Assembly: GCF_020023735.2 (NCBI RefSeq)
Contig: NZ_CP076444.2
Location: 1,441,501-1,505,500 of the forward strand
DNA length: 64,000 bases
Direction: 5' to 3'
From: Mycoavidus sp. HKI
GTDB taxonomy: Bacteria > Pseudomonadota > Gammaproteobacteria > Burkholderiales > Burkholderiaceae
The position numbers and the translations under genes are program-made. Positions 4,712-27,469 of the stretch are shown in pieces; the stretch's first letter is position 1, and every line of letters begins with the position of its first letter. The notes below the pieces were generated by a model. The model made no database searches. It worked only from the letters and a program-made list of their open reading frames with translations, and had not been told where the DNA came from.

Positions 4712-4765
4712 TGAACGCCTCTATCTCGGTTACTGCACTACAAGTTAGGGTGACTGATGAGTTTT

Positions 4766-5245: not shown

Positions 5246-5262
5246 GCTTAAATCCCCTTATG

Positions 5263-6018
5263 TTAGATTTTTTGACGACCCAGGATGGCTTCGATGATGT
5301 CGAAATCATCCGGGTAGGTGACCTTAAAATTACGCAAGCTGCCTTGTACTAGTTTAGGCGAATGTCCTAACCCTTCAAAAGCACTCGCCTCATCAGTGAG
5401 TATATGCCCTTCTTGCTGCGCACGCACGAGCGCATGACGTAGCATCCCTAGTCTAAACATTTGTGGTGTCTGCGCTAGCCATAACTGGGTGCGTGGTTCG
5501 GTGCGCAAAATAGCCGGTAGCGACGGTGCAACCCCTGCTGCAACCTCACTCGCCGGCGCCTGGCGCTTTAAGGTATCCGCCAGTGGCAATGCCACAATGC
5601 CACCCACCGGATCATCACGTACGGCACGAATCAGCGAACGGATCAACTCTGGCTGGATACCCGCACGGGCGGCATCGTGCACCAACACCCAATCATGATC
5701 ACGCGCGCCAAATTCCGCCAACGCCTTTAAGCCGTTAAGGACCGACGCTTGGCGACTGTCACCGCCACAGCGGCGCACCGCAAAACGCAAGCCACTAAAA
5801 CGGCGTGGGTCAAAGTGAGTATCATTGGGCGCCAATACCACGAGCGTTTGGGTTAACTCAGAACACGCATCAAAAGCCGCCAGCGTGTGATAAAGCAGAT
5901 TGTGACCTGCCACCATGCGATACTGCTTGGGCAATTGAGCGCCTGCCCGCTGCCCAGTGCCAGCACATGGGATAACTACAAAAAGACGTTCATTCACAAG
6001 CACTTTATCGTCAACCAA
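5263..6018 (-). CDS. ispD: 2-C-methyl-D-erythritol 4-phosphate cytidylyltransferase
   Basis: A 251-residue enzyme transferring CMP from CTP to MEP, two steps before IspF. The nucleotide-binding loop [19 protein letters not shown] near residue 15 has Cys where an Ala is common in the AAGxGxR motif, which is unlikely to matter. The [11 protein letters not shown] motif holding the metal-binding aspartate and the late LTDEASAFE segment are intact. It lies first in the ispDF pair and is divergent from mfd across an 80-base gap. Confidence 0.96.
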
Positions 6019-6041
6019 AATAAAAAAATCGATTCAGATTC

Positions 6042-6047
6042 TATAAT
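6042..6047 (+). promoter_or_regulatory. Candidate -10 element upstream of mfd
   Basis: TATAAT lies 52-67 bases before the possible mfd starts, in the ispD-mfd divergent gap. No clear TTGACA-like -35 lies at normal spacing, so this is only a candidate. Confidence 0.3.
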
Positions 6048-6098
6048 AGCCCCTTTGCGGCGAAGTTCTGAAAGAGCTCGCCACGCTACTTATGTATT

Positions 6099-9000
6099 AT
6101 GCCTTGTTGCTCTATGCCTGAAAACATCACGCTCGCTTCTCCTCCTGTCCCTAGCTTAGTCAAGCCCGGTCAGCGCTTTGTCTTTGATGGCGCATACGGC
6201 TCAGCCGATGCGCTGGCACTCGCGCGTTATTTCACCACCCATCGCCCACAGTTACCCTTGCTGGTGGTCTTTTGCGCACTCGCAGCCGACGCTCAGCGAC
6301 TGCAGCATGAAATCGCTTACTTCGCACCTGAAGCGCGCGTACGCCTTTTGCCGGACTGGGAAACCCTGCCTTATGATGCTTTTTCGCCACATCAGGATTT
6401 GGTTTCAGCACGGCTGGCAACCCTGCATGATCTGAGCGCGGGGCGCTGCGATATTGTGCTGGTACCCGCCACCACCGCCCTTTACCGGATGGCGCCGCCC
6501 TCTTTTATGGCGGCCTACACGTTTGAATTTACGCAAGGTGAGCAGCTTGATACAGCACAACTTAAAGCGCAACTGACCCTCGCCGGTTACGAGCATGTCA
6601 GCCAGGTCATGCGACCCGGCGAATATTGCGTGCGTGGCGGGCTGATTGATCTTTTTCCAATGGGCTCTGCGTTGCCTTACCGGCTTGATTTATTTGATCA
6701 TCAAATTGATTCGATCCGCGCTTTTGATCCAGATACCCAACGCAGTCTCTACCCAGTGCGTGAAGTAAGATTGCTACCGGGCCGTGAATTTCCGTTTGAC
6801 GAGCCTGCGCGCACTGCGTTTCGCAGCCGCTGGCGCGAACTCTTTGAGGGCGACCCAAGCCGGGTGCCGCTTTATAAAGACATTGGCGTCGGCATACCGT
6901 CAGCCGGCATTGAATATTATTTACCGCTGTTTTTTGACAAAACAGCAACACTTTTTGATTATCTGCCGCCCACTGCTCACTTAGCAATGATTGGCGATCT
7001 AGATACAGCAATCAAGCAGTTCGCCGCCGATACGAAACAGCGTTACACATTTTTGTCTCATCATCGCGAGCGGCCCATTCTAGAACCGGCACGCCTTTTT
7101 TTGTCAGATGAGGATTTTTTTACCCAGGCTAAACCTTTTGCGCGCCTTATTCTAGCAACGCCAGCTGCCGGCCAAGCGCGCCGCACGCACTGGGCTGAGC
7201 CACTGCCGAACCTCTCAGTGAACCGTCAGGCCAGCGACCCGGTGGCCGCACTTCGTGACTGGCTAGGCAAGACATCGCAACGCGTACTGATTGCGGCCGA
7301 ATCCGCTGGGCGACGCGAAACCATCCTGCAAATGCTTGGCGAGCATTCTCTCAAGCCCGCTGTGCTTGACACTTTTGCGGCTTTTACAGATGAGACGCTG
7401 CGCTTTGCACTAACGACCGCGCCACTGGCCACGGGCTTTGCCTTACCCGCCGAAGATCTTGCCATCATCACAGAAAGCGAACTGTACGGTGGGCTGGCGC
7501 GACGTGTCGGACGCCGCCGGCAAGAACAAGCGAGCGACGTCGATGCGATGGTGCGCGATTTGTCCGAACTTAAAATTGGCGAACCCGTCGTGCATAGTCA
7601 ACATGGCATTGGACGCTATCACGGCTTAGCCTCAATGGACTTAGGCGAGGGCGAGACTGAATTTTTACACCTCGAGTATGCCTCCAATAGCACGCTCTAC
7701 GTGCCGGTTTCGCACTTGCATATGATTTCGCGCTATAGCGGCGCTAGCCCAGAGAATGCCCCCCTCCATGCACTCGGTTCCGGCCAGTGGGAAAAAGCCA
7801 GGCGCAAAGCCGCCCAGCAAATCCGCGACACTGCCGCTGAACTGCTCAATCTGTACGCTCGCCGCGCGGCCCGCGAGGGGCATGTTTTTTCTCTATCGCC
7901 CGATGATTACGAACGTTTTGCTGAAAGTTTCGGCTTTGAAGAAACGCCGGATCAGGCCGCCGCGATTGCGGCTGTGATGGCAGATATGACCAGTGGCAAA
8001 CCGATGGATCGACTGGTCTGCGGCGATGTCGGTTTTGGTAAAACAGAAGTGGCGCTGCGTGCTGCCTTTATTGCGGTGTTAGATGGCAAGCAAGTGGCGC
8101 TGCTAGCGCCCACGACACTTCTGGCCGAGCAACATTTTCAGACTTTTTCCGATCGCTTCGCAGATTGGCCGGTTAAAATTGCCGAGTTATCGCGCTTCAA
8201 AACCACCCAAGAAATTGCTCAAGCAATCACTGCATTGCAGGCCGGCACCGTCGATATTGTGATTGGCACCCACAAATTATTGTCGCCACAAATCAATTTT
8301 AAGCAACTCGGGCTGGTCATTATCGACGAAGAGCACCGCTTTGGCGTACGCCAGAAAGAAGCGCTTAAAACCTTACGCGCGCAAGTCGATGTGCTCACGC
8401 TTACCGCGACGCCAATCCCCCGCACGCTGGGGATGGCGCTGGAAGGGTTACGCGATTTCTCGGTGATTGCCACCGCCCCTCAAAAAAGGCTAGCGATTAA
8501 AACTTTTGTGCGCCGCGAAGACCACAGCACAATCCGCGAGGCCATGCTGCGCGAACTCAAACGCGGCGGCCAAATCTATTTTCTGCATAATGAAGTTGAG
8601 ACCATTCAGCAGCGTCGCCTGATGCTCGAAGAGTTGATGCCCGAAGCCCGCATCGCAGTCGCGCATGGGCAGATGCACGAACGTGAGCTGGAACGCGTGA
8701 TGCGTGACTTTGTTGCTCAGCGCACCAATGTGCTCTTATGTACCACCATCATTGAAACCGGTATTGACGTACCCAGCGCCAACACGATTTTGATGCATCG
8801 CGCAGATAAATTCGGCCTCGCCCAATTGCATCAGTTACGTGGCCGCGTTGGCCGCTCGCATCACCAAGCTTATGCTTATTTACTGGTGCACGATCCAGAA
8901 GCGTTAACCAAACAGGCCATGCGCCGACTCGAAGCGATTCAGCAAATGGAAGAGTTAGGCTCAGGCTTTTATCTAGCCATGCATGACCTTGAAATCCGCG

Positions 9001-9578
9001 GCACCGGTGAAGTCCTGGGAGACAAACAGTCAGGGGAAATTCATGCCATTGGCTTTCAACTTTACAGCGAGATGCTGCATGATACCGTCAACGCACTTAA
9101 AGCTGGCCATGAGCCGGATCTGACCGCACCGCTTGCCGCTGCTACAGATATCAATTTACATGTCCCCGCACTGTTGCCTGCAGACTATTGTGGCGACGTG
9201 CAACAGCGACTGTCTTTATACAAACGACTGGCAGGCTGCGCCCTTGACGATGCTATCGATACCATCCACGAGGAACTGATTGACCGCTTTGGCAAGCTTC
9301 CCCCGCCGGCCCACGCACTGATTGAAACACACCGCTTACGCGTAGCCGCCAAACCCCTTGGCATTATAAAAATCGATGTGTCAGAAAGTGCAATCACCCT
9401 GCTGTTTATGCCTAACCCACCGATCAACGCGGCGTACATCATTGCGCTGGTACAAAAGCATCGTCATATCAAACTGATTGGGCAAGACAAGCTGCGGATT
9501 GAAACTCAGGCGCAGGATCTGCCGGCACGGCTGACGACGCTAAGAGCGACCTTACGTATGTTGCGTGGGTTAGAGTGA
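6099..9578 (+). CDS. mfd: Transcription-repair coupling factor Mfd
   Basis: A protein of about 1159 residues that removes stalled RNA polymerase from damaged DNA and recruits UvrA. It has the UvrB-like N-terminal module, then an RNA-polymerase-interaction/CarD-like domain around residues 480-550 (GEPVVHSQHGIGRYHG). The superfamily 2 motor has Walker A GDVGFGKTE near residue 640 and the IIDEEHRFG box near 740. The GRVGRSHHQAYAYLL motif VI and the C-terminal TRCF domain follow. ATG 6099 gives MPCCSMPEN; the in-frame ATG at 6114 (MPENIT) may be the true start and is equally plausible, since neither has a good ribosome site. Confidence 0.97.
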   Translation: MPCCSMPENITLASPPVPSLVKPGQRFVFDGAYGSADALALARYFTTHRPQLPLLVVFCALAADAQRLQHEIAYFAPEARVRLLPDWETLPYDAFSPHQDLVSARLATLHDLSAGRCDIVLVPATTALYRMAPPSFMAAYTFEFTQGEQLDTAQLKAQLTLAGYEHVSQVMRPGEYCVRGGLIDLFPMGSALPYRLDLFDHQIDSIRAFDPDTQRSLYPVREVRLLPGREFPFDEPARTAFRSRWRELFEGDPSRVPLYKDIGVGIPSAGIEYYLPLFFDKTATLFDYLPPTAHLAMIGDLDTAIKQFAADTKQRYTFLSHHRERPILEPARLFLSDEDFFTQAKPFARLILATPAAGQARRTHWAEPLPNLSVNRQASDPVAALRDWLGKTSQRVLIAAESAGRRETILQMLGEHSLKPAVLDTFAAFTDETLRFALTTAPLATGFALPAEDLAIITESELYGGLARRVGRRRQEQASDVDAMVRDLSELKIGEPVVHSQHGIGRYHGLASMDLGEGETEFLHLEYASNSTLYVPVSHLHMISRYSGASPENAPLHALGSGQWEKARRKAAQQIRDTAAELLNLYARRAAREGHVFSLSPDDYERFAESFGFEETPDQAAAIAAVMADMTSGKPMDRLVCGDVGFGKTEVALRAAFIAVLDGKQVALLAPTTLLAEQHFQTFSDRFADWPVKIAELSRFKTTQEIAQAITALQAGTVDIVIGTHKLLSPQINFKQLGLVIIDEEHRFGVRQKEALKTLRAQVDVLTLTATPIPRTLGMALEGLRDFSVIATAPQKRLAIKTFVRREDHSTIREAMLRELKRGGQIYFLHNEVETIQQRRLMLEELMPEARIAVAHGQMHERELERVMRDFVAQRTNVLLCTTIIETGIDVPSANTILMHRADKFGLAQLHQLRGRVGRSHHQAYAYLLVHDPEALTKQAMRRLEAIQQMEELGSGFYLAMHDLEIRGTGEVLGDKQSGEIHAIGFQLYSEMLHDTVNALKAGHEPDLTAPLAAATDINLHVPALLPADYCGDVQQRLSLYKRLAGCALDDAIDTIHEELIDRFGKLPPPAHALIETHRLRVAAKPLGIIKIDVSESAITLLFMPNPPINAAYIIALVQKHRHIKLIGQDKLRIETQAQDLPARLTTLRATLRMLRGLE

Positions 9579-9610
9579 CAAGTATAAAGAGGCGTATTTT
9601 TATTGTATTT

Positions 9611-9686
9611 TGGCGCGCCCGGCTGGGATCGAACCAGCGACCTTCGGCTTCGGAGGCCGACACTCTATCCACTGAGCTACGGGCGC
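9611..9686 (-). tRNA. tRNA-Arg (anticodon CCG)
   Basis: The reverse strand folds as a full cloverleaf of 76 bases. The acceptor stem is GCGCCCG/CGGGCGC with CCA encoded, the D-stem is GCTC/GAGT, and the anticodon stem TCGGC/GCCGA holds loop CTCCGAA (anticodon CCG). The T-arm GCTGG/CCAGC has loop TTCGATC. It reads the arginine codon CGG. Confidence 0.95.
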
Positions 9687-9876
9687 TTGGCAAAGCGAGA
9701 GACTGCTAAGCGAAGTCGCAAGGATACCCGTTTCAGCTCACGAAGTCTATGTGTTCAGTGTGAATATCTAGCTATCTGCCCTCTGATCGGGCTTTTCCAT
9801 CAAAAACACCCCCCTCAAATCAATCGTTTAAACTTATAATTTGTTGATATCGTTCAATAATGGAGACAAAACTAGC

Positions 9877-10467
9877 ATGAGCGAAAACCATCACGACGCA
9901 CTCATTAAAACTCCGCGGCAGCTTATTGTAGTCGTCATTGCTTCTTTTTTGATTCCAGTCGTAGGCATTCTCTTGCTGATCGAATATGTTGATAATACCT
10001 ATCGTGCAGGCACAGGCACCGATGCTATGTCACCAGCCTCCATTGCTCAGCGCATCGCCCCCATCGCTCAGCTCGAAATCCGCGAAGCAGCAGCAACACC
10101 AGCATTAAATACCGCCGCCACCACGCCAGAAAACGCTTTGCCGACTACGCAAACTACCGCCTCAGCCGCGCTGGCTGCACTGTCTGCAATCCCCACCCCA
10201 TCAGTTGCCGGCAGTGGCGCCGATCTGGCGCAAGCCGGCAAAGCGCTCTACTCACAATTTTGCGTTGCCTGTCATGGCACTGGCGTGATGGATGCCCCTA
10301 AACTCGGCGATAAAACCGCCTGGGCGCCTCGCTTAAAAGAATCGATCGAGACCATCTATAAATACGCTCTGCATGGCAAAGGCAATATGCTGCCTAAAGG
10401 CGGCTCAAATGCCCCTGATGCTGAAGTTAAAGCAGCGGTTGATTATATGATCAAAGCCGTTAAATAA
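9877..10467 (+). CDS. Membrane-anchored c5-type cytochrome c
   Basis: A 196-residue protein from ATG 9877, preceded by GGAGA at 9862. A longer TTG start at 9841 is less likely. Residues about 13-35 form an uncleaved membrane anchor (LIVVVIASFLIPVVGILLLI). An Ala/Thr/Pro-rich linker leads to a single haem-binding CVACH motif near residue 127, with a later Met in the MLPKGG context as the probable axial ligand. Such small c5 cytochromes carry electrons in the periplasm towards terminal oxidases. The gene stands alone between the tRNA and rep. A TATAAT at 9835-9840 is a candidate -10 box. Confidence 0.88.
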   Translation: MSENHHDALIKTPRQLIVVVIASFLIPVVGILLLIEYVDNTYRAGTGTDAMSPASIAQRIAPIAQLEIREAAATPALNTAATTPENALPTTQTTASAALAALSAIPTPSVAGSGADLAQAGKALYSQFCVACHGTGVMDAPKLGDKTAWAPRLKESIETIYKYALHGKGNMLPKGGSNAPDAEVKAAVDYMIKAVK

Positions 10468-10501
10468 AATTGATTGATCCCTAATCAATAGGGCGGCGAG
10501 A

Positions 10502-12574
10502 CTAATTTAACAGGGCTTTTAAATTAGCCAAACGGTCTTTCGGCGTCATCGGGGCGTCTTCTGGCGCGCCCGGCGCACTCTCCTCCAGCACCATTTCTGC
10601 AATAAAACGCGACGGTTCACATACTTGCGTTTGCTGCGCATAGTTACGTTTAGTGCAATACGTAAGATGTAGACTGCGCTTGGCGCGAGTAATGGCGACG
10701 TACATTAAGCGTCTTTCCTCTTCAATGCGCGCATCATCCATTTCAACACCTTCGCCCCCTCGATGCGGCAAAATTCCCTCTTCACAGCCGATTAAAAATA
10801 CATGCGGATACTCAAGTCCTTTGGCTGCATGTATGGTTGACAGTCGCGCTGCATCAGGGTCTTCATCACGGCCCTCAAGCATTGACATCAAAGCCACCAT
10901 TTGAATCAGTTGCAATAAGTTTTTACCTGTATCGGAGAGACCATCGGCCGTATCAAAGCCAGTGGCTGTTTGCTCCTCTAGCTCAGGCTTAGTGCCTTTA
11001 CGTTTAAGCCACTCAAGAAATTCAAGGACATTTTGCCATTTGGTCCGCGCCTGGCGCTCATCATATGTATCATATAGATAAGCCTCATACTGAATGCCCG
11101 CCATTAAGTCATCCAGCAAAACCGTCGCGGGCTCTTTCGCCGCGCGGACCCGCAAGCGCTCAATAAAATCACAAAATGCGCGCAGCGGCTCAAGTTGGCG
11201 CACCGCAAGCCGTGCTTCAAGCGCCCCCATATAAACCGCCTCAAACAGCGAACACTTCGCTTGTCCAGCAAATGCGCCAAGGGATTCAAGCGTCGTGTTA
11301 CCCACACCACGGCGAGGAGTGGTGACCGCCCGAATAAACGCTGGATCATCATCCGCATTGGCGATCAGCCTTAGATACGAGCACACATCCTTAATTTCAG
11401 CGCGCTCAAAAAATGATTGCCCGCCTGATAAGACATATGGAATTCGCTCACGTCGCAGCACTTTCTCTAATACCCGCGCCTGAAAATTACCGCGGTACAG
11501 AATCGCATAATCGCGAAACTGCGCCCGCCGCTCAAAGCGATGTGCGGAGAGCCGAAATACCACTGACTCAGCCTCATGCTCGTCATCATTAGCCGCCGTT
11601 ACCGTAATCGCATCGCCCACCCCATGTTCGCTCCATAATTTTTTCTCGAACAGCTTGGGATTGTTAGCAATCACATTGTTAGCCGCATCCAAAATACGCA
11701 CGGTCGAACGATAGTTTTGCTCCAGCTTGATCACTTTTAGCGCAGGAAAATCAACTTGCAGTTGCTTGAGGTTTTCCAGTGTCGCGCCACGCCAACCGTA
11801 AATCGCTTGATCGTCATCACCCACCGCTGTAAATGCTGCCCGCGGCCCAGCTAGCCACTTCAGTAAAGTATATTGGCAAGCATTGGTGTCCTGATATTCA
11901 TCAATCAGCAAATAACGTAAGCGGTTTTGCCATTTGTCGCGGATCTCTTCATTAGCCGCTAAAAGCTCGGCCGGAATACGGATCAAATCATCAAAATCCA
12001 CTGCCTGGTAAGCGCTCAGCGTGGCGACATAATTACGATAAATCAGTGCTGCCTGATGCTCATCTTCATCGCTAGCGTTGGCAAGCGCGCTCTCCGGCGC
12101 TACCAGCGCATTCTTCCAAAGCGAAATCGCGCTTTGAATACGGCGGATCAGTGCTTTGTCAGTGGTGGCCGCTTGCTCTTGGACCATCGTAAAGCAATCT
12201 TGCGCATCCATGATCGAAAACTGCGGCTTCAAGCCTACATGCTCGGCTTCTTGCCTGAGCATTTGCAGGCCAAGCGAGTGAAAGGTGCAAACCGTGAGTT
12301 GCTTAGCAGGTATCTTGCGCCCTTCCTTGCCAGGCGCAGACATGGTTTTGCCTTCCAGTAGCTGAGCCACACGCTCACGCATTTCGGCAGCGGCTTTATT
12401 GGTAAAAGTTACGGCGGCAATATATTTAGGCTCAAAGCCTCGCTCTTCAATCAGATACGTAATTTTTTGCGTAATCACGCGCGTTTTGCCGCTGCCCGCG
12501 CCCGCGAGCACCAGGCAAGGCCCATCAAGATAGCGCACCGCTTCGCGCTGCGCTGGGTTCAAACCAGCGGACAT
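10502..12574 (-). CDS. rep: ATP-dependent DNA helicase Rep (UvrD/Rep family)
   Basis: A 690-residue superfamily 1A 3'-5' helicase that supports replication restart and clears protein roadblocks. Walker A is LAGAGSGKTRVITQKI near residue 25, motif II is LLIDEYQDTN, motif III VGDDDQAIYGWRGA, motif IV LEQNYRS, and motif VI YVAITRAKRSLHLTYC lies near the C-terminus. The N-terminal LNPAQREAV and the VLAGAGSGKT context match Rep better than UvrD, and the length is close to Rep (about 673). It converges on the cytochrome c gene with 34 bases between stops. Confidence 0.93.
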   Translation of the reverse strand: MSAGLNPAQREAVRYLDGPCLVLAGAGSGKTRVITQKITYLIEERGFEPKYIAAVTFTNKAAAEMRERVAQLLEGKTMSAPGKEGRKIPAKQLTVCTFHSLGLQMLRQEAEHVGLKPQFSIMDAQDCFTMVQEQAATTDKALIRRIQSAISLWKNALVAPESALANASDEDEHQAALIYRNYVATLSAYQAVDFDDLIRIPAELLAANEEIRDKWQNRLRYLLIDEYQDTNACQYTLLKWLAGPRAAFTAVGDDDQAIYGWRGATLENLKQLQVDFPALKVIKLEQNYRSTVRILDAANNVIANNPKLFEKKLWSEHGVGDAITVTAANDDEHEAESVVFRLSAHRFERRAQFRDYAILYRGNFQARVLEKVLRRERIPYVLSGGQSFFERAEIKDVCSYLRLIANADDDPAFIRAVTTPRRGVGNTTLESLGAFAGQAKCSLFEAVYMGALEARLAVRQLEPLRAFCDFIERLRVRAAKEPATVLLDDLMAGIQYEAYLYDTYDERQARTKWQNVLEFLEWLKRKGTKPELEEQTATGFDTADGLSDTGKNLLQLIQMVALMSMLEGRDEDPDAARLSTIHAAKGLEYPHVFLIGCEEGILPHRGGEGVEMDDARIEEERRLMYVAITRAKRSLHLTYCTKRNYAQQTQVCEPSRFIAEMVLEESAPGAPEDAPMTPKDRLANLKALLN

Positions 12575-12680
12575 CGTATGCTTTATATTCAGATAAAAAG
12601 GCCGTGAATCGGCACAAGGGGGATGATCTTAACACGCGCAGAAAAAATATTGAGATGCGACTTGTTAATGCAAAAACGCA

Positions 12681-12795
12681 TTACAGATTGGCATCAACGC
12701 AGCCAATGCCGACGACATCATTTCGGCAGAAGAAGTCGAAGACGAAGCAGCGACCTAGCGCACAGAAACACGGTGCAAGATAACTGGCGCTAGCT
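12681..12795 (+). pseudogene. RelB/ParD-like antitoxin, degraded C-terminal fragment
   Basis: One frame reads GINAANADDIISAEEVEDEAAT, then a TAG where tryptophan is expected, then RTETRCKITGAS. This resembles the tail of RelB/ParD-type antitoxins that precede RelE/ParE toxins. The N-terminal half is missing. It ends where the toxin remnant begins. Assignment is by pattern only. Confidence 0.5.
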
Positions 12796-12796
12796 C

Positions 12797-12945
12797 ATGC
12801 AACTGGTCTGGACTCGCCCAGCCAAGAAGACCGAAAAGCCATTCGTAAGTATATCGCTGCCGATAATCCAAATGCAGCGCTCGACTTACACTGGCTCAGC
12901 GGGAAACACAATATGCTACCATCCGATTTAATTATAATATAAAGG
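12797..12945 (+). pseudogene. RelE/ParE-family toxin, frameshifted N-terminal fragment
   Basis: ATG 12797 begins MQLVWTRPA, and the similarity then continues in another frame from about 12829 as DRKAIRKYIAADNPNAALDL. Together these give the typical start of a RelE/ParE toxin. After this the frame reads LHWLSGKHN and stops, with the C-terminal two thirds absent. The frame change falls in the AAGAAGACCG region. With the preceding antitoxin tail this is a dead toxin-antitoxin module. Confidence 0.65.
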
Positions 12946-18268: not shown

Positions 18269-18572
18269 CGCTCTGCGAAGTATAACAATAGTCAAATTTT
18301 CTTTTAAACAAACAACTCAGCAAGCTTTTCCTCCTCAGAGAGTAACCTTGCCCCCGTTTAGCGTATCCCTTAGCCGAACGGATTATGCTGCCAGCGTGTA
18401 GCGTGCCGGCTTAATTTTTAACAATTTTTTCTCCCTTACTGAATTTTAAACCTTCAGTAAGGGATTCTTTTCTCGGGGGCAAGGTCAGTGGCTTTAGCCA
18501 AACTCCACTTTTTCATACCAGCGCCTCGATTTCGACATCACCGAGGATTCGCTCAGGATTTTCTTGCCTACC
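18269..18572. other. Intergenic gap after the lipoprotein operon
   Basis: Between the operon and the convergent WD40 fragment. Apart from the terminator hairpin at 18432-18471 I see no gene. Confidence 0.6.
18432..18471 (+). terminator. Rho-independent terminator of the lipoprotein operon
   Basis: A perfect 12-bp stem (TCCCTTACTGAA at 18432-18443 with TTCAGTAAGGGA at 18453-18464), a 9-base loop and then TTCTTTTCTC. It may also serve the opposite strand, since the WD40 fragment converges here. Confidence 0.85.
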
Positions 18573-19537
18573 TCACAGCGATAACGGCTCTCCCACTGCC
18601 CCCCTTTGCTTCAACAGTGTCCGATTCACCTCGCTTAAGCCTTCTACGCCTTCTATAAATGTACCCTTCATGGTCAGTTCGGCATGCGGTGACATCCAGC
18701 GTAGCCGCACCTGAACTTCATCACCCTCGCCGATCACCTGCCACTGCCGAACGAACTCATCCTCACTGCCCGTCACCAGATCGTTGCCGCCGACGGACCG
18801 TTGCCAGGCAATACTGTAGATTCTCCCGCTAAAACCTTCAATCACCGCCTGACACTGACCCGAGGCGACTGCCCACAGACGAACGGTCTCGTCCTTACTC
18901 CCCGAGGCGATCTGATCGCCGCTCGGCGAATACGCTACGCTATTAACCTCAGAGTCATGTCCTTGTAAGGTGTGGCGCAGCGCGCCGCTTGCCGCGTCCC
19001 ACAAACGAACGGTCTTGTCATCACTCCCCGAGGCAATCTGATCGCCGCTCGGCGAATACGCTACGCTCCTAACCTCAGAGTCATGTCCTTGTAAGGTGTG
19101 GCGCAGCATGCCGCTTGCCGCGTCCCACAGACGCACGGTCTTGTCATCACTCCCCGAGGCAATCTGATCGCCGGTCGGCGAATACGCCACGCTCCTAACA
19201 TAATCGTCATGTCCTTGTAAGGTGTGGCGCAACGCACCGCTTGCCGCTTCCCACAGACGAACGGTATAGTCAGAACTCCCCGAGGCGATCTGAGCGCCGC
19301 TCGGCGAATACGCTACGCTACTAACCGCATCTTCATGTCCTTGTAAGGTGTGGCGCAACACGCCGCTTACCACTTCCCACAGTCGAATGGTATGGTCATC
19401 ACTCCCCACGGCGATCTGATCGCCGCTCGGCGAATACGCTACGCTATTAACAAAAGAGTCATGTCCTTGTAAGGTGTGGCGCAGCGCACCGCTTGCCGCG
19501 TCCCACAGACGCACGGTCTTGTCCCAACTCCCCGAGG
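18573..19537 (-). pseudogene. WD40-repeat protein, 5' end removed at an IS481 element
   Basis: The frame stays open up to the left inverted repeat of the IS (SGSWDKTVRLWDAASG is readable at the junction). The apparent GTG start at 19514 is therefore artificial and the N-terminal domains are missing. It retains five near-identical 42-residue WD40 repeats of the type GHD..V.SVAYSPSGDQIASG, then one or two divergent blades. The tail LRWMSPHAELTMKGTF and LSEVNRTLLKQRGA recalls the end of NACHT/pentapeptide-WD40 proteins. It is a sibling of the 22756-27027 gene, which lacks this tail. Beyond the IS the sequence is an unrelated intron scrap, so the missing 5' part was deleted or moved. Confidence 0.85.
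18880..19537 (-). repeat. 126-bp tandem repeats encoding WD40 blades (truncated gene)
   Basis: Units of 126 bases recur, each containing the reverse complement of TGTCCTTGTAAGGTGTGGCG and a conserved GCCGCTCGGCGAATACGC core. Differences concentrate at the bases encoding residues just after GHD and around the SGSxDxT loop. Confidence 0.85.
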
Positions 19538-20634
19538 TGTGCGATTTACATACATCGTTTCAATTAAAATAGGCGGATGAACGCACAAATACGCTGTCGA
19601 CTTAAATGGGTCAAACTATACGAAGAGCTGGGAGATGCAGGCGTGGTATGTCGACGTTGTGGCATCTCCCGGCCGACATTACGCAAGTGGGTTAAACGCT
19701 ATCAACAAGAGGGCGAAGTGGGCCTGGATTCAATGAGCCGCCGTCCACACCACAGCCCTAATCGCAAGGTCACGCAGACTGACCAGGACAATATTTTGCG
19801 TATGCGTGGTGAGAATAAGGGCGCACGCCGCATACAAAATGAACTTCGTCTATATGAACAAAAAGAATTGTCACTGCGGACCATTCATAAAGTTTTGGTC
19901 GCGGCAAAAGTCAATCCGCTGGTCAAACCCAAACGGTCAATTCCGTCTAAGCGATATAGTCTTCTCATTCCAGGTGAACGCGTACAAATAGACACCATGA
20001 AAGTCGCACCAGGGGTGTATCAATATACGGCGGTGGATGACTGTTCGCGATTTCGCGTGTTGGCAGTTCATCCACGCCGCGATGCCCGCCACACCTTGCT
20101 TTTCCTTGATCGCGTGATAGAAGAAATGCCCTTTCCGATTCAACGGATTCAAACGGATCGTGGAACCGAATTTTTCGCTGAAAGCGTACAAAGATATTTG
20201 ATGAGCAATTGCATTAAATTTCGTCCAATTCCACCTCGTTCACCCCATCTCAATGGCAAAGTCGAGCGTTCTCAACTCACCGATAAAATTGAGTTTTGGT
20301 CACGCTATTCACATAAAGAACAAGGCATTGATCAGCGTATTGAAGAATGGCAGTTTGAATACAATTGGCGACGCCCACACGGCTCTCTTTCTGGAAAGAC
20401 TCCCGTTGGCAAGCTTGCAGAAGTAGGCGCACAGATCCCGCTTTCTGAAGACATTACTTCTGCTTATGACTTACGCAAAGAACGCATCCGTTATAGCAAT
20501 TGGAAAGTCGATTTAGCTATCGCTGCTATGGATTTGCAATAACCCTACTGAACTAATCATCTCACTCATTTTTACCCTAAAAAACATTAAAAATGGTTTG
20601 CAGAAAAGTGAAACGATGTATGTAAATCGCACAC
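19537..20634 (+). mobile_element. Intact IS481-type insertion sequence
   Basis: About 1.1 kb bounded by perfect 25-bp inverted repeats (19537-19561 and 20610-20634, outer end GTGTGCGATTTACATACATC), with one transposase gene inside. No obvious target-site duplication is seen: the left flank is the WD40 coding sequence and the right flank is group II intron sequence. The flanks were therefore probably rearranged after insertion. Confidence 0.9.
19577..20542 (+). CDS. IS481-family transposase
   Basis: A 321-residue DDE transposase. The N-terminal helix-turn-helix (VVCRRCGISRPTLRKWVKRY, about residues 22-41) is followed by an rve catalytic core. Its acidic triad is the Asp of RVQIDTMKV, the Asp of IQTDRGTEF and the Glu of LNGKVERSQLTDK. 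The length suits IS481 and there is no interruption, so the element may still be active. It starts 15 bases inside the left inverted repeat. Confidence 0.92.
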   Translation: MNAQIRCRLKWVKLYEELGDAGVVCRRCGISRPTLRKWVKRYQQEGEVGLDSMSRRPHHSPNRKVTQTDQDNILRMRGENKGARRIQNELRLYEQKELSLRTIHKVLVAAKVNPLVKPKRSIPSKRYSLLIPGERVQIDTMKVAPGVYQYTAVDDCSRFRVLAVHPRRDARHTLLFLDRVIEEMPFPIQRIQTDRGTEFFAESVQRYLMSNCIKFRPIPPRSPHLNGKVERSQLTDKIEFWSRYSHKEQGIDQRIEEWQFEYNWRRPHGSLSGKTPVGKLAEVGAQIPLSEDITSAYDLRKERIRYSNWKVDLAIAAMDLQ

Positions 20635-21233
20635 TTTAAACGACGCCAAACCAAAACTAATTCCGTAGCGCTACCCGGTACCACGCCATGGTGCTGAAGA
20701 ATGGCTTGAGCCGTGTGCAGGGTGATCTGCACGCACGGTTCTCAGAGGAGGGCGAAGCAGCAATGCTTCGCTCTTACTCGACACATTAGTCACCAGTTTC
20801 GACGACATCTAATCCTTTCGACACCTCAACGATGATTCGTTTACACTCGTCTTCTGAGAACTCACCTGACGCATAATTTTTGCGCCTTTTCCTTGACGCT
20901 CACTACAACGGCTCTTTACCGATGCAGCTCAAGGTAGTTTGGAACCTGCGCCTGTACGCCGATTCCGAGGGGCCTACCCTCATCTTCGATACAGCATTGC
21001 GACCGAGGCTCGCGCCTCTACGCATTCGTGACACACTAGTGGCCAGAATTTACTCTGCCTTACCTGCTAGGATTTTAGTCAGCCTCCCTCTTCTTGGCTC
21101 ATTGGAAAGCTAAAAAATTATTGCTTAATGCGCTTTACCTTCCTATAGTAGGGAAACACGCTACAAGTCCCTCGCTTGTTATTGACGTGCTTCCCACAAT
21201 TAGCAACATAGCCTAATAGACATGGAGGTTAGC
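20634..21233. other. Degenerate stretch between IS481 and the unknown coiled-coil gene
   Basis: It holds the 3' end of a group II intron (20660-20781). On the minus strand at 20786-20884 there is a short open frame ending EFSEDECKRIIVEVSKGLDV with a stop, which may be the tail of a lost gene. A 77-codon plus-strand frame at 20880-21113 has no ribosome site or recognisable motif. The last 120 bases are AT-rich and probably carry the promoter of the next gene. Confidence 0.45.
20660..20781 (+). ncRNA. Group II intron 3' end (domains V and VI) remnant
   Basis: Bases 20708-20741 (GAGCCGTGTGCAG ... CTGCACGCACGGTTC) fold as the 34-nt domain V hairpin of bacterial group II introns, with the two complementary stem parts and internal bulge. 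A second hairpin follows (GGCGAAGCA/TGCTTCGC, about 20751-20772) in the place of domain VI. Upstream, the CCATGGTGCTGAAGAATGGCTT context is usual before domain V. There is no intron-encoded reverse transcriptase and no 5' end, so it cannot splice autonomously. Confidence 0.75.
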
Positions 21234-21980
21234 ATGACACACATAGACCTTTCTAGTATTTCCAGAACTGTACCTGCTCAAAATACTTATCATCAGGCAG
21301 TAGATAGTACTGCCACAGTAACTAATAATGCTCTTTCGATTGTAAACGATCAACTAAATGGAAAAATTGAGGAGCTGACGCGGCGACTCTTCCAAATAGA
21401 AAATTTTATTAAAGACCAAAATCAAAAAATTGAACAAAAAGACCAAAAAATCTTAGATTTAGAAACATCCATCAAAGAACTCTCTGGAAAATCAAATAAA
21501 GCTTCAAATACAATTTCAGATTTACAAGTAAAAGATCAAATTCTTTTTATTTTTTCAGATACATCTACGCGCAGCTTAATTTATCGTACGCACGGCTTTA
21601 AGAGGTCTAGCGGTCCTGGGATTGCGGGTGAAGCAGAAGTGATGATTGAATTCAAGCCAAATTTCCCTAAAGAGTTTACTCTTGACATCAAAGGTCATAT
21701 TCCCAGTTTTGGTTCTGATGGCATAGAAAATGGAATTTTTGAAGTTCATATCGGAAAGCTTGAAGAAAAACGGCATAAAGAAGAATTTCAATTAGTTCAA
21801 GAGGGTTGGGGAAAAGATTACACTAGAGATTATGCTAGTGTTTCATTTAAAACAGAGGATGAAGATAATAATACTATTTGGATTAATCTACCAAAAGCTC
21901 CTTATGATGAGAAATATGAAGAATATAAAAAAGTTGGAATGAAACTTTATTCTTTAAATATTATCCCAAGAGAAAAATAG
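21234..21980 (+). CDS. Unknown protein with N-terminal coiled coil
   Basis: A 248-residue protein from ATG 21234, chosen because GGAGG at 21224 sits just ahead; the ATG at 21222 overlaps that site. Residues 1-40 are Thr/Ser/Asn-rich. Residues about 40-100 are a strong coiled coil (IEELTRRLFQIENFI, QNQKIEQKDQKILDLE). The rest looks beta-rich and globular (IFEVHIGKLEEKRHK, YASVSFKTEDEDNNTIWINL). No signal peptide or membrane helix is seen. It is much more AT-rich than core genes and surrounded by mobile scraps, hence probably acquired. I do not recognise a family; a role as secreted effector or structural protein would be speculation. Confidence 0.7.
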   Translation: MTHIDLSSISRTVPAQNTYHQAVDSTATVTNNALSIVNDQLNGKIEELTRRLFQIENFIKDQNQKIEQKDQKILDLETSIKELSGKSNKASNTISDLQVKDQILFIFSDTSTRSLIYRTHGFKRSSGPGIAGEAEVMIEFKPNFPKEFTLDIKGHIPSFGSDGIENGIFEVHIGKLEEKRHKEEFQLVQEGWGKDYTRDYASVSFKTEDEDNNTIWINLPKAPYDEKYEEYKKVGMKLYSLNIIPREK

Positions 21981-22428: not shown

Positions 22429-22587
22429 TCATATGACTTCTTTCACACAAAATTCCTGACACCCTCGGATTGTCTTAGTGCAGCATCCGAACTCTTTGGA
22501 TAGCTCCTTAGCGCTCTTGCCCGCTTGCACTAACTCTATTATTTGTTGACGAAAGGCCGCTGGATACGGTGCTCTAGACTGATTCAT
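22429..22587 (-). pseudogene. IS3-family transposase OrfA, N-terminal fragment
   Basis: Begins MNQSRAPYPAAFRQQIIELV and continues AGKSAKELSKEFGC, a helix-turn-helix start of IS3 OrfA, with AAGGAG ahead of the ATG. It stops after 52 codons, and the leucine-zipper part and OrfB are absent. The upstream bases near 22615-22640 may be the element's terminal sequence. A C-terminal OrfA fragment of similar type lies at 63199-63447. Confidence 0.65.
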
Positions 22588-22755
22588 TACAGACTCCTTT
22601 TAGGTAGTTTAAAAGTGTCCGCGAAAAGAAGTCAACATCACTCTTCTCTCTAAAATACTTTTCTACTTCCTTTTTTCTATAACTACCCTACACTCTACTC
22701 TCTGTCCCTTTTACCAAACTCGCTTTTCCATTGCTATTTTCTAGAGGGCTATTCT

Positions 22756-25700
22756 TTACCGCCGCTCTCTTTCCATGACATGCTCAGCTGTCTCCGCGGC
22801 GGACACCCTTTGCGCCTCCCACAGCCGCACCGTATTGTCATAACTGTCCGATGCGATCTGCAACCCGCTCGGTGAATACATCACGCTAATAACCCAGTGA
22901 GTATGTCCTTCTAAGGTGTGCACAAGGGCTCCGCTGTGCGCGTCCCACAGACGTACCGTCTTGTCATCACTCCCAGAGGCGAGCTGCAAACCGCTCGGCG
23001 AATACACCACGCTATTAACAACAGAGGTATGTCCGCGTAAGGTGTGCCCAAGGGCTCCGCTGTGCGCGTCCCACAGCCGCACCGTCTTGTCACCACTGCA
23101 CGAGGCGATCTGCGTTCCGCTCGGCGAATACACCACACTACTAACAGAGTAGGTATGTCCTTCTAAGGTGTGTCCAAGAGCTCCGCTTTCCGCGTCCCAC
23201 AGCCGCACCGTATTGTCCCAACTGCCCGAGGCGATTTGCGTTCCGCTCGGCGAATACACCACGCTACTAACATAGAAGGTATGTCCTTCTAAGGTGTGTC
23301 CAAGGGCTCCGCTTTCCGCGTCCCACAGCCGCACCGTATTGTCCCTACTGCCCGAGGCGATCTGCAACCCGCTCGGCGAATACACCACGCTAATAACCTC
23401 GTCGGTATGTCCTTCTAAGGTGTGCTCAAGGGCTCCGCTGTGCGCGTCCCACAGCCGAACCGTATTGTCATCACTGCCAGAGGCGAGCTGCTTTCCGCTC
23501 GGCGAATACACAACGCTATAAACAGTGGAGGTATGTCCTTCTAAGGTGTGCTCAAGGACTCCGCTTTCCGCCTCCCACAGACGTACCGTATTGTCAAAAC
23601 TGCCCGAGGCGATCTGCAAACCGCTCGGCGAATACACAACGCTATTAACACCTGAGGTATGTCCTTCTAAGGTGTGCTCAAGGGCTCCGCTTTCCGCGTC
23701 CCACAGCCGCACCGTACGGTCTAAACTGCCCGAGGCGATCTGCGTTCCGCTCGGCGAATACACCACACTCCTAACAGTGGAGGTGTGTCCTTGTAAAGTG
23801 TAGAGTGTTGTCCAATTCGAAATATCATTTACTCTGGCTGCGTCACTCTCAAGATCATCCTCGTAGGATTGATCATCCGATGAGGAATCACTCAAACTCT
23901 CCTCTCTCTCCTCTTCAACATACGACCAATCTACATACTCCACTCCTGACATCTTCGCACCACTTAAATTCGCATCACCATGCTTTATATTTGTATTGCG
24001 TAAATTCACCTTCCTTAAATCCGATCCCTCAAACTGTGCTCCTTCAAACTCTCCTTCACTCAGATCCGCTCCAGGTATCTGTATTCCATTTAAATCCCAC
24101 TTCTTAAACGAAAAACCCGCTTTAACTAAAATCGTGATCGCGTTCGACGCCGCTTGCCGCAACTCACCATCCGTTTTCGACCGCTCCACTACCTTTAACA
24201 ACTGCTCCTTAAATGCAGCCTCTTGATTTGCACGATCGGTCAACAAACCCACTACTCCCTTATCACCTACCCAGTGCTTCGGCCATAACGATAACTCTAC
24301 AAGCTTTCGACGCGGCACTGCTGCTTCAATTTCAAAACTATAGACTGATGCATCGCTGCCTCGACGCGAACGGCTTTCTACCTCCGTGCAGGCATCGAAC
24401 GAATCAAACAACCTCCGCACCACGCAATATTCCAACAGCGATTTATGAATAAAACGATATTGCGTTCCACTTCGTATCAACGGCCACGTTTCTCGCAATA
24501 GTTGCTTCTTCTCTTCACGACCAAAAAATACTTCTTTCCAACTCCCTTCGTCTTTTAGCGACGAATACTCTACTACCGGATTGCCCACATTCTTTGTATA
24601 CAGATGCACTCCTAACTCTTTCACAAATCCCAGCCCGTGTTCGGCAAATCCTTCGTCGCTCAGCTCTCTAAACAGCTCTCTTTTTGCTCCTGTTAAATTT
24701 TGCGTGCTTAACCACTGTTGGTTCCGATCAAACCACTGCCTAAAGAACTGGTCATACAGATCCAGACGTAATTGCACGGCACTTCGCTCTTTCTCTTCAT
24801 TTTCCAGGTACGGCAAAGCTTCCAGCACCACTCGCAGTAAAAACGGCGTGCTCACCAGCTCTTTTAAATGATCTTGTTTAAGAGCGAACTGATACTGTTG
24901 CGCTGTCCAGCCCATTGCGTTGCGCTCCACATATTTTTCTAAATATTGAGCCCGATCTGATTCTGAAAACTCCGTAATCTCCAATTCTTGAAATAACTCG
25001 TCCTCGCCCTTAAGACGCAGTTTCGGTTGAAAACGTTTTCCATACTCACCCCCAAGATACTCGCTGCCGCAACTGATTAACATTTGCCCCTGCCAGTTCC
25101 CAGAACGGTTGATCTCATTACTCAGATACAGATTTCGCGTCTGACGTATCTCATCATAACCATCCAAAATAAATACAAATTTCTCCTTTTTCTTTAACTT
25201 CTCTACCTGATATTCTGACAACCCTCTTTTCTTTAGTGCTTTACCAATCAGATCGTGTTCTGGCTTATCGATACTCGCCAGTGATATAAACAACGGAATC
25301 GCATCAGCCGCTTCTTTTCTAGTCTCCCATAAGTGCTTTTCTAGAACTCGGCTAAACGTCGTTTTCCCCGACCCAGAATCTCCCTTCAACAAAATCACCC
25401 GTTTATCTTTGAGCAACCCTTCGACTTGCGCTAACAGGCCTGTAGCAGCTCCTTGCAGACTCGCTTTACCTTGCGGTTCAACATACAGCTGTAGCGTTTC
25501 ATTAAATACCTCATCTTCCTTCAGCGCAGCAAAATACTGCTCTTTCAGCGCGGCTCGGGGGTCTGCATTCAGCAACCGCAGCTGGTGATGCTGCTGTTGC
25601 ACCGTGGACGCAAGCTGGCTATGCAGCGCTGTCCATATGCCATCGAAAATGCCGTCTAAGAGCTTCGCAAACTCTAGCTTGCCAAACTTTGAATCTCTCT

Positions 25701-27027
25701 TTAAGCTCGAAATAAACCTGCTGTGCCCATCCCAAAATTTGTTCAGAAACGTTTTAGCCTCATCGCTACCCACCAACAGCCGCTCGAGCACCTTAAATAG
25801 CACTCCATGCGGACCTTGGTTCAGATAGACTTCTTCTCCCTTCTTGGCTTGCAAATCAAAGCGCAGAGGATCCTCCATACGAACCGTCGTCGATTCAATA
25901 AAATCCTTCAGACAGTAGTCATAGCTATCGGGGGTCAATGAAACCGGGATTATGCCGTGGTGACCTTTCAGATGCGCTGCTCGTATTTCCAAAAACGCCA
26001 TTTCCGTCAACACATGATGGAACTCCGACTTATACTTTTCCTCCTGCGAAAATTTTCTGACAACCTCACGTAAAGCTGGAGTACCCTTTTGCTTATCGTC
26101 TTTGAGGTAGGCGTCTCGGTCTTCGTCATAAGCTTTTTTAAGCTCATCACAAAACTCTTTATAGGACTGCCCTTTTAGGTAGCTTCCTAACACATCTGAA
26201 CAACATACGATCACCTTATCCACCGGCTCAACATCCGCTCGCAACTGAGCAGGCAGCAAGCACAGCTGATTGGTTAAGATATCTTCTAGCTTCCCATCCG
26301 CTTCCAGATTTTCAACCACGCTTGAATACGCTTGTCCTATCGGCGTTTGGTCCGAATAAAGCGTCACCCCTCGGATTTTAGATAACTTATTGATTAAATA
26401 TTTGGATGTCGAGGCCTTCGCCTCTCCATGGTCTTTATTGTCATGCGCATACACCAGAAACAGGCTCGGTTTATTCGACACCTCTAAGGAGTTAAGCGTC
26501 AACAGTGCTTTTTCAAACAGATAATCCACCAACTCGCTTTTTTCTTGGACCGACATGACAGGCGACAGCCGATGCATTGAAGTAGAAGTCGCCGCCAGTA
26601 TCAAAGTAGGCACTGCGCCCGCAGGTAACGACTTAGTTGACACTTTAGGAACTGACTTGATCCCTTCGTAACCCCACGCTTGCGCTTTTTTGTAACTCGC
26701 CTGCGCTTTTTCCAATTTTCCTAATTTCACCAAGAGCTCCGCGCGCTCAAAATAAACCTCGCCTATGCGCTGCCGTAATGCATCTTCTTCGCGTGTCTGA
26801 GGCGTACGTGCTTGGCTCAAAGCGCTTTTCATCTCCGATAACGGAGGAGCAAGTTGGTATGCATCTCCGGCATGTTTAAAAGTCACTTTTGCTTGGTCAT
26901 ACAAAGCTAACGCTACTTCAAAATGCTGCATCGTCTTCTGTAGACGAGCTTGTTCCAAATAGCTTTGCGCCTGCACCTGAAATTGTTTACCTATCAGGGC
27001 TTGAGAAACAGGGTTACCCAACATCAT
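22756..27027 (-). CDS. NACHT (STAND/NLR-like) protein: TPR - TIR/SEFIR-like - NACHT - pentapeptide - WD40
   Basis: A 1423-residue protein from ATG 27027, with AAGGAG five bases ahead; the GTG at 27033 overlaps that site. Residues 1-130 look like TPR helices (ALALYDQAKVTFKHAGD, LGKLEKAQASYKKAQ). Residues about 185-365 resemble a TIR/SEFIR fold (SLFLVYAHDNKDHGEA, VDKVIVCCSDVLG, EMAFLEIRAAH). The NACHT ATPase has Walker A LLKGDSGSGKTTFSR near 550 and Walker B FVFILDGYDEIRQ near 620. Pentapeptide-type repeats (GADLSEGEFEGAQFEGSDL) lie near 985-1020 and an acidic linker near 1035-1060. Eight 42-residue WD40 repeats follow from about 1070. Such NTPases are ligand-triggered switches: WD40 is the sensor, NACHT oligomerises, and the N-terminal domain acts. 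Bacterial relatives include anti-phage proteins. Phage defence or host interaction are both possible. Confidence 0.85.
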   Translation of the reverse strand: MMLGNPVSQALIGKQFQVQAQSYLEQARLQKTMQHFEVALALYDQAKVTFKHAGDAYQLAPPLSEMKSALSQARTPQTREEDALRQRIGEVYFERAELLVKLGKLEKAQASYKKAQAWGYEGIKSVPKVSTKSLPAGAVPTLILAATSTSMHRLSPVMSVQEKSELVDYLFEKALLTLNSLEVSNKPSLFLVYAHDNKDHGEAKASTSKYLINKLSKIRGVTLYSDQTPIGQAYSSVVENLEADGKLEDILTNQLCLLPAQLRADVEPVDKVIVCCSDVLGSYLKGQSYKEFCDELKKAYDEDRDAYLKDDKQKGTPALREVVRKFSQEEKYKSEFHHVLTEMAFLEIRAAHLKGHHGIIPVSLTPDSYDYCLKDFIESTTVRMEDPLRFDLQAKKGEEVYLNQGPHGVLFKVLERLLVGSDEAKTFLNKFWDGHSRFISSLKRDSKFGKLEFAKLLDGIFDGIWTALHSQLASTVQQQHHQLRLLNADPRAALKEQYFAALKEDEVFNETLQLYVEPQGKASLQGAATGLLAQVEGLLKDKRVILLKGDSGSGKTTFSRVLEKHLWETRKEAADAIPLFISLASIDKPEHDLIGKALKKRGLSEYQVEKLKKKEKFVFILDGYDEIRQTRNLYLSNEINRSGNWQGQMLISCGSEYLGGEYGKRFQPKLRLKGEDELFQELEITEFSESDRAQYLEKYVERNAMGWTAQQYQFALKQDHLKELVSTPFLLRVVLEALPYLENEEKERSAVQLRLDLYDQFFRQWFDRNQQWLSTQNLTGAKRELFRELSDEGFAEHGLGFVKELGVHLYTKNVGNPVVEYSSLKDEGSWKEVFFGREEKKQLLRETWPLIRSGTQYRFIHKSLLEYCVVRRLFDSFDACTEVESRSRRGSDASVYSFEIEAAVPRRKLVELSLWPKHWVGDKGVVGLLTDRANQEAAFKEQLLKVVERSKTDGELRQAASNAITILVKAGFSFKKWDLNGIQIPGADLSEGEFEGAQFEGSDLRKVNLRNTNIKHGDANLSGAKMSGVEYVDWSYVEEEREESLSDSSSDDQSYEDDLESDAARVNDISNWTTLYTLQGHTSTVRSVVYSPSGTQIASGSLDRTVRLWDAESGALEHTLEGHTSGVNSVVYSPSGLQIASGSFDNTVRLWEAESGVLEHTLEGHTSTVYSVVYSPSGKQLASGSDDNTVRLWDAHSGALEHTLEGHTDEVISVVYSPSGLQIASGSRDNTVRLWDAESGALGHTLEGHTFYVSSVVYSPSGTQIASGSWDNTVRLWDAESGALGHTLEGHTYSVSSVVYSPSGTQIASCSGDKTVRLWDAHSGALGHTLRGHTSVVNSVVYSPSGLQLASGSDDKTVRLWDAHSGALVHTLEGHTHWVISVMYSPSGLQIASDSYDNTVRLWEAQRVSAAETAEHVMERERR
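22790..23800 (-). repeat. Eight 126-bp tandem repeats encoding near-identical WD40 blades
   Basis: The unit recurs every 126 bases. Landmarks are the TATGTCCTTCTAAGGTGTG motif at about 22902, 23154, 23280, 23406, 23532 and 23658, with variants at 23028 and 23784. Most units differ at only a few codons: the two after GHT, the one after the next V, and two in the SGSxDxTVRLW loop. Confidence 0.9.
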
Positions 27028-27469
27028 CCACACTCCTTTTTGTTATTCGGTTCTAAAGCAATCGTTTTAGGACTTATGGTTCTACAACCCTTGTCTTGAC
27101 CACCTTGTTCTAAATGCTATTCCGTCGAAGATGGTTTCGTGTGCGAGTTTACTTCAAAAATAAACACTCAATTAGTCGCAATAAAGGCTAAAAACCCATA
27201 ATTCGCCATTGGGACGAAGCAAAAATCCATAATCTGTTGTTTTAATTGATTTTTATTCGGATTCGGAGTGCGGCATGCCCATCTTTGCATCACCCCTTCA
27301 AATTTTTAGAGTGAAAAGGCCTTTTACTGTACATTCATCCAGCCATTTTGAATGCTTTTTTGGCGCTTAGTTTTTGAAGATTTGAACGGCTACAAAATAG
27401 GCGTTTGTTGTAAAGTTACTAAATCCGTTGTAAAGTTTGGATTCAAGAACCCCGCAAAGCCTTATGTGG
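27028..27469. other. Intergenic stretch upstream of the NACHT gene
   Basis: About 440 AT-rich bases between the NACHT gene start and tRNA-His. It has a short direct repeat, GTTGTAAAGTT, twice near 27408 and 27428. It should contain the NACHT gene promoter, but no convincing -35/-10 pair was identified. Confidence 0.5.

Follow-up and report, generated by a model that had tools for sequence, protein, structure and literature searches.

An NLR-like gene with a TIR-type effector domain in the diversifying NACHT–WD40 repertoire of the endofungal bacterium Mycoavidus sp. HKI

bNACHT antiphage proteins have a NACHT centre, an N-terminal effector and a C-terminal sensor, and the same layout is found in the gene described here, a single intact open reading frame (ORF; 1423 a.a.) on the minus strand, between 22756 and 27027 of a 64,000-nucleotide stretch of Mycoavidus sp. 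HKI DNA (NZ_CP076444.2, positions 1,441,501 to 1,505,500; this whole stretch is called the window below). The gene differs from bNACHT genes in that its sensor is made of WD40 repeats and no defence-island neighbours are seen. A NACHT–WD40 core is also known from the fungal NWD proteins HET-E, HET-D and HET-R of Podospora anserina, whose near-identical repeats evolve in concert and vary at codons 7, 9, 25 and 27 (PMC1805685); these features are shared by our gene, which however is bacterial, has eight repeats, and carries TPR hairpins, a TIR/SEFIR effector and a pentapeptide stretch (the HET domain itself has no Pfam match at E ≤ 1 in a.a. 1–500). Two reports on fungal NLRs concern this symbiont genus and, judging from their descriptions, the domain types seen here: one describes a SEFIR-like N-terminal cluster, whose M. 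cysteinexigens homologues occur 'as separate proteins', and a long helical N-terminal domain that Mycoavidus also has (PMC9815663), the other derives NACHT–PPR–WD40 receptors of Mortierellomycota from Mycoavidus at ∼45–50% identity (PMC11291939). The family and the idea of a transfer are therefore already in print; but the SEFIR-like domain is here fused to NACHT–WD40, in a multigene, module-swapping repertoire, and among the matches listed by a literature search (titles and abstract starts, not supplements) none dealt with how large the repertoire of these bacteria is, how its modules are swapped or how its repeats evolve. The gene is probably a non-self switch of the NLR (STAND) type, one of a repertoire that is diversifying in the symbiont. 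Its features are:

22756–27027, minus strand: intact NLR-like gene (ORF, Pfam)
27033–27038, minus strand: Shine–Dalgarno-like AAGGAG directly ahead of the ATG at 27027 (sequence)
26677–26982, minus strand: TPR-like helical hairpins, ∼a.a. 16–117 (Pfam, profile, predicted fold)
25765–26475, minus strand: TIR/SEFIR-fold domain, ∼a.a. 185–421 (alignment of relatives, predicted fold)
26002–26004, minus strand: codon of Glu342 (alignment of relatives)
24925–25401, minus strand: NACHT ATPase, a.a. 543–701 (Pfam, profile)
23944–24048, minus strand: pentapeptide repeats, a.a. 994–1028, then an acidic linker (Pfam)
22789–23796, minus strand: eight WD40 repeats of 42 a.a. each, a.a. 1078–1413 (Pfam, repeat analysis)

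The first-pass annotation, made from the letters alone, had proposed this order of TPR-like, TIR/SEFIR-like, NACHT, pentapeptide and WD40 parts, and Pfam, profiles and predicted fold agree with it. The NACHT (Pfam E-value 5.2e-13) has intact Walker A and B motifs, as read in the sequence, and its profile has 13 PDB matches at E ≤ 0.01, all with animal-NLR names (NLRC4 on top, 4.4e-9); the pentapeptide stretch and the eight WD40 stretches have E-values of 4.8e-7 and 1.5e-95. The Pfam match to TPR is weak (a.a. 90–116, E-value 0.0014), but an N-terminal profile built from relatives matches the TPRs of OGT (best 4.8e-10), and the segment is predicted to form helical hairpins (predicted local distance difference test score 80.4; predicted template-modelling score 0.68). 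Ahead of the hairpins lies a Ser-rich, charge-poor leader of a style common to other family members. In its architecture, with a central NACHT, an N-terminal effector and a C-terminal repeat sensor, the protein is of the NLR/STAND type.

The TIR/SEFIR assignment, originally made by eye for residues 185–365, holds as well: the domain is predicted to adopt a TIR-type fold with a helical insertion after strand C, and this predicted fold is that of SPARTA TIR-APAZ, RPS4/RRS1 TIR and IL-17RA SEFIR. Identity to these is 8–21% in rows 1–17 of the comparison, and our domain differs by its long helical insertion and an uncertain catalytic residue; neither the TIR nor the SEFIR model of Pfam matches a.a. 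1–500 at E ≤ 1, and SEFIR has no match across the genome. Glu342, invariant in 20 out of 20 aligned relatives, is the candidate for the catalytic Glu of TIR domains or the conserved Glu of SEFIR domains, as placed by spacing. E295 is less likely to be the catalytic residue, because it is present in only 15 of the 20 rows.

About twenty related, rapidly diversifying copies of this type are present in the genome, a shuffled multigene repertoire that was overlooked when the gene was first treated singly. Residues 1–1070 as a query give 29 matches in the genome, eight of which (our gene included) cover most of the query; seven of these eight have no internal stop and one is stop-bearing. The NACHT family PF05729 is found at 22 places, 20 of them above the Pfam cut-off (one of these partial; one of the two below it is a DEAH-type helicase), and WD40 at no fewer than 150 (of 262 candidates, 150 were scored). 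Among ORFs in the fetched stretches of the genome, 29 passed a filter (a WD40 motif or >900 a.a.) that misses some pieces, e.g. a 563-a.a. frame in L043 (L numbers denote loci). Three were left out (the helicase of L033, the SNF2 helicase of L051, and L041_1168, with a partial NACHT match only), and the 26 family or STAND-type ORFs kept, fragments included, sum to 35,907 a.a., or 4.8% of the 2,254,889-bp genome.

Several architectures are seen: TPR–TIR–NACHT–penta–WD40 (our gene); TPR–ARM_5–NACHT–WD40 (L034 type; PF23948, E-value 2.4e-70), whose ARM/helical domain we infer to be the NLR_Helical domain described in PMC9815663; TIR–NACHT–HEAT (L038, where HEAT was tested, and L037 and L051 by similarity); NACHT–HEAT without TIR (L042); NB-ARC/NACHT–TPR (L041, and L051 by similarity); a short N-terminus followed by NACHT–WD40 (in the compared genomes G001 and G002, the latter of the same genus; G000 is the genome of our gene); leader–penta–WD40 without NACHT (L032, L035 and L046); and a leader with WD40 but no effector (L043, 342 a.a.). 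Proteins of ∼620–915 a.a. in L032, L035, L046, L063, L073, L074 and L077 have a common uncharacterised N-terminal domain, pentapeptides and WD40 arrays, without NACHT. The N-terminus of the 870-a.a. WD40 proteins among them (LPxEIxEEI...) was considered as an F-box and rejected: two L032 proteins have no Pfam F-box match at E ≤ 0.5, none is among the best 25 of 43 families for L035, and a profile of this N-terminus matches no F-box in PDB at E ≤ 10. Two further observations concern other genomes: an ORF in L058 of G002 (4383–12863) encodes 2826 a.a. with two TIR-like regions and 21 WD40 repeats, and L082 and L083 of G010 (another endofungal genus) are family members on short contigs, one contig having two adjacent TPR-leader genes.

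Effector modules have moved between receptor frames, as judged by comparing sequences. We built a FastTree phylogeny of 39 NACHTs over 414 columns (23 endofungal WD40-type, six others of the same genome and 10 of other genomes; nothing usable came from L104 and L110). All 23 of the endofungal WD40 type fall into a single clade (support 0.927), which one outside sequence, L114, joins (0.998), while the HEAT-type and NB-ARC-type NACHTs of the same genome fall outside it. Yet the TIR-like domains of the HEAT-type L037, L038 and L051 are 62–64% identical to that of our gene, despite the different NACHT lineage, hence the inferred movement. In this tree, which contains no fungal or named bNACHT sequences, the clade does not group with ordinary STAND proteins of free-living bacteria but stands apart from nine of the ten sampled proteobacterial NACHTs.

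The gene is under purifying selection, judged against its closest paralogue, L049: the ratio of nonsynonymous to synonymous substitution rates (dN/dS) is 0.44 for TPR, 0.13 for the TIR-like domain, 0.18 for NACHT and 0.18 for the ARM–penta part. In four more pairs dN/dS is 0.11–0.31 for the TIR-like domain and NACHT, and 0.20–0.55 for WD40 where this was measured, in three of them (values for L062/L063 are noisy, because the two are nearly identical).

Repeat turnover is seen in the WD40 arrays. We found 547 repeats in 54 ORFs, of which 515 (206 from G000) passed a score and length filter. The nearest neighbour of the 206 lies only in the same gene for 133, only in another gene of the genome for 23, only in a non-orthologous gene of another genome for 26 and in a cross-genome orthologue for 13, with 11 ties; few genes in this comparison, our gene not among them, have a reciprocal-best orthologue. 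Four of the eight repeats of our gene are nearest to L048 of the same genome, one is a tie between its own array and L048, and three are nearest to G002 genes, which speaks for exchange between genes. Variation is concentrated at the codons that vary in fungi (the fungal codon register was inferred from the conserved codons 8 and 26): the 206 repeats have 193 different combinations at codons 7, 9, 25 and 27, and by within-gene nonsynonymous diversity (pN) this quartet ranks, out of 111,930 quartets, second in G000 (19 genes, 203 repeats), second in G002 (23 genes, 255 repeats), third in G001 (five genes, 42 repeats) and 13th for the eight repeats of our gene alone. Codons with pN above the overall synonymous diversity (pS) in at least 99% of gene bootstraps are 6, 7, 9 and 25 in G000, 6, 7, 9, 25 and 27 in G002, and 7, 9, 25 and 39–41 in G001. 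A diversity-generating retroelement was rejected as the mutator: a reverse-transcriptase search of the genome gave two 502-a.a. frames of equal score, which by their size we took for group II introns.

Such codons are no proof of a fungal link. As a control we took ten plasmid loci of free-living bacteria, nine of which contain 11 ORFs with at least six repeats (L127 has none); the quartet ranks were 4202, 4503, 181, 5, 24302, 1, 143, 94, 252, 10 and 52, and quartet pN exceeds pS in six of the 11 ORFs. The pattern is strongest in a Haliscomenobacter NACHT–WD40 (rank 5) and a Tolypothrix caspase–WD40 (rank 1) and weakest in a Nostoc NACHT–WD40 (rank 24302), and therefore marks diversifying near-identical WD40 arrays in general. 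WD40 arrays are shared with NACHT-, NB-ARC- and caspase–WD40 proteins of cyanobacteria, Bacteroidota and others, L123 and L125 with the same hypervariable codons; however, only the WD40 part is common (≤56% identity), and our NACHT and TIR-like parts were not found on plasmids. The first-pass annotation was accordingly right in part: the architecture, the TIR/SEFIR domain, the endofungal lifestyle and a NACHT–WD40 core shared with fungal NWD proteins stand, but to call that core fungal in style was an overstatement, as such proteins are encoded on plasmids of free-living bacteria. Gene exchange with fungi, also suggested there, is plausible and had been proposed in print (PMC9815663, PMC11291939).

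Our reading of the gene as a switch builds on what was observed: the domains and their predicted fold, purifying selection, a repertoire whose modules are swapped, turnover of the repeats, and hypervariable codons. The top face of the WD40 part would bind a protein ligand, which would open the NACHT ATPase and let it oligomerise; the oligomer would cluster the N-terminal TIR/SEFIR-like domains, and these, whether by cleaving NAD+ or by recruiting partners, would harm or arrest the compartment that holds the protein. Three processes would generate new specificities: exchange and homogenisation of repeats, both inside a gene and across genes; variation at a few surface codons; and transfer of effector modules from one NACHT frame to another. 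Ligand binding, oligomerisation, effector chemistry and any activity are steps we infer. Several points weigh against this reading. PADLOC gives only weak matches to the protein (best E-value 5.8e-4). Because Glu342 was placed by spacing and hhalign left the C-terminal half of the TIR-like domain unaligned with SEFIR, its enzyme activity is putative. Our gene has eight repeats and its closest paralogue six, compared with 11–14 in 15 of the 20 repeat-bearing ORFs of the genome, and fungal analogues are reported to need ∼10 (PMC1805685). Codon 27 has pN not reliably above pS in G000, where codon 6 (not in the fungal set) ranks higher, codons 39–41 stand out too in G001, and pN/pS is biased on recombining repeats. 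Finally, the orthologues L041 and L068 keep related repeats in register, with a WD40 dN/dS of 0.20, so repeat turnover is not universal.

Where such a switch would act is a separate matter: we give delivery to the fungal cytosol and action inside the bacterium about equal odds, and both are compartment versions of the same switch. Action inside the bacterium, a reasonable possibility, would mean that phage or mobile-element proteins are sensed and the infected cell is killed or arrested through the TIR-like domain, as in bNACHT and TIR systems. Characterised bacterial NACHT proteins are reported to be antiphage (PMC12169576), prophages and their remnants reportedly make up 11.5% (B1-EB) and 7.2% of two M. 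cysteinexigens genomes (PMC5877345), some free-living bacteria have similar WD40 variability, the protein has no classical signal peptide (judged by eye), and it matches NCBIfam DS8_antiphage weakly (E-value 3.2e-10, but 38.4 bits, below the cut-off of 790). However, no defence-island neighbourhood is seen among the window ORFs scanned: the neighbours are housekeeping or transport genes (Mfd, ClpB, a UvrD-type helicase, CsgG and CTP synthase by Pfam; enolase and KdsA by eye). The helicase (10502–12574) matches PADLOC GajB (E-value 1.2e-100) but was rejected as part of a Gabija system, since other helicases match likewise and Pfam gives UvrD/Rep; GajA has no match among ten ORFs scanned. Nor is TIR+NACHT matched in 50,697 phage records, or either part in 72,556 plasmids, and the L043 protein has a leader and WD40 without any effector.

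Distribution also tells against action inside the bacterium and fits delivery to the host: among the genomes searched the TIR-like domain, like the family, is found only in endofungal ones. Five of 41 genomes (our own and 40 relatives) matched and 36 did not; the five are three of the genus, G010 (another genus of the same family) and G015 (pentapeptides only). The TIR-like alignment matches one of 300 genomes of the order, our own (congeners evidently fell outside the draw). A two-peptide pattern of the domain, scanned against a genome-contig collection that may omit near genomes, found one relative, Ca. Glomeribacter gigasporarum BEG1, which supports the endofungal assignment; a single-sequence scan of the same collection found none. 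The NACHT alignment matches 13 of 299 phylum genomes at E ≤ 1e-8, the 12 besides our own weakly (best 4.1e-23).

Delivery, on which we place comparable and likewise limited belief, would have the receptors exported, most simply by a type III secretion system (T3SS), to police fusion partners or viruses in the fungal cytoplasm or to manipulate host NLR signalling. The T3SS export gate SctV, the sole component searched, is intact (817 bits; cut-off 692), and Mortierellomycota reportedly have NLRs whose parts are homologous (PMC11291939, PMC9815663). Even where their N-terminal modules are unrelated, family members begin with 25 residues rich in Ser (18.0% in 22 family ORFs, 7.7% in 89 others), with 1.00 charged residues in positions 2–15 compared with 2.87. 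On the other hand, the p-values for the leader (∼2e-7) count paralogues as independent, seven of 29 candidate ORFs of the genome were not counted as family (fragments, three ORFs unrelated to it, and L042, a HEAT–NACHT that has no such leader), several leader starts were set by hand (that of L035 begins one residue late), the background of 89 ORFs includes two family pieces, and proteins of ∼150–220 kDa are large for a T3SS. More doubtful is the wider proposal that T3SS-exported, diversifying symbiont NLRs with swappable TIR-like, helical and WD40 modules serve hyphal non-self recognition, and that gene leakage seeded the NLRs of Mortierellomycota.

It is improbable that the gene is of fungal origin and was captured by the bacterium: domains are shared with fungal NLRs (PMC9815663) and ARM_5 is found in one of 299 phylum genomes, our own only (and in none of 14 controls), but the gene has a Shine–Dalgarno-like site and an uninterrupted frame, three genomes of the genus as well as Ca. 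Glomeribacter have the family, and the direction published for Mortierellomycota is from bacterium to fungus (PMC11291939). Just as improbable is a gene with no immune function, be it a STAND regulator of the usual kind or part of a selfish paralogue family in decay: there are several fragments, a stop-bearing copy (L008/L047) and mobile-element debris on one side of the gene, but seven of the eight longest matches are free of stops, dN/dS is low and variability is concentrated at surface codons.

A second family member is present in the window as a fragment:

18414–19537, minus strand: 3' fragment of a second family gene (WD40 array, ORF 18573–19514), cut by an insertion sequence (IS; repeat analysis, tblastn)

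The IS481-like element (∼19537–20634; transposase at 19577–20542 on the plus strand, with an rve domain; ∼25-bp terminal inverted repeats by eye) lies inside this WD40 array, and tblastn with the family finds no continuation of the gene to its right. Two fragments of group II introns, one on each strand (RF00029 at 20706–20782, plus; RF01999 at 20864–20981, minus), lie between the IS and our gene, followed by a plus-strand ORF (21222–21980; 252 a.a., a probable coiled coil with no Pfam match above cut-off, in a low-GC region) and, just downstream of our gene, an IS3-type OrfA helix-turn-helix remnant (22430–22600, minus; by eye).

That a 2.25-Mb symbiont genome gives ∼5% of its length to recombining receptors, NLR-like ones and related STAND proteins, calls for a strong selective explanation. 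Since related NLRs are reported from fungi that host this bacterial genus, two questions become testable, namely the source of the NLRs in early-diverging fungi and whether symbionts direct their NLRs at phages or at the host, and the TIR-like effector offers a direct biochemical assay, NAD+ cleavage. With a build like that of fungal and animal immune receptors and about twenty diversifying copies in an endofungal bacterium, the gene may therefore have a part in what is treated as foreign, be it by the bacterium or by its fungal host.

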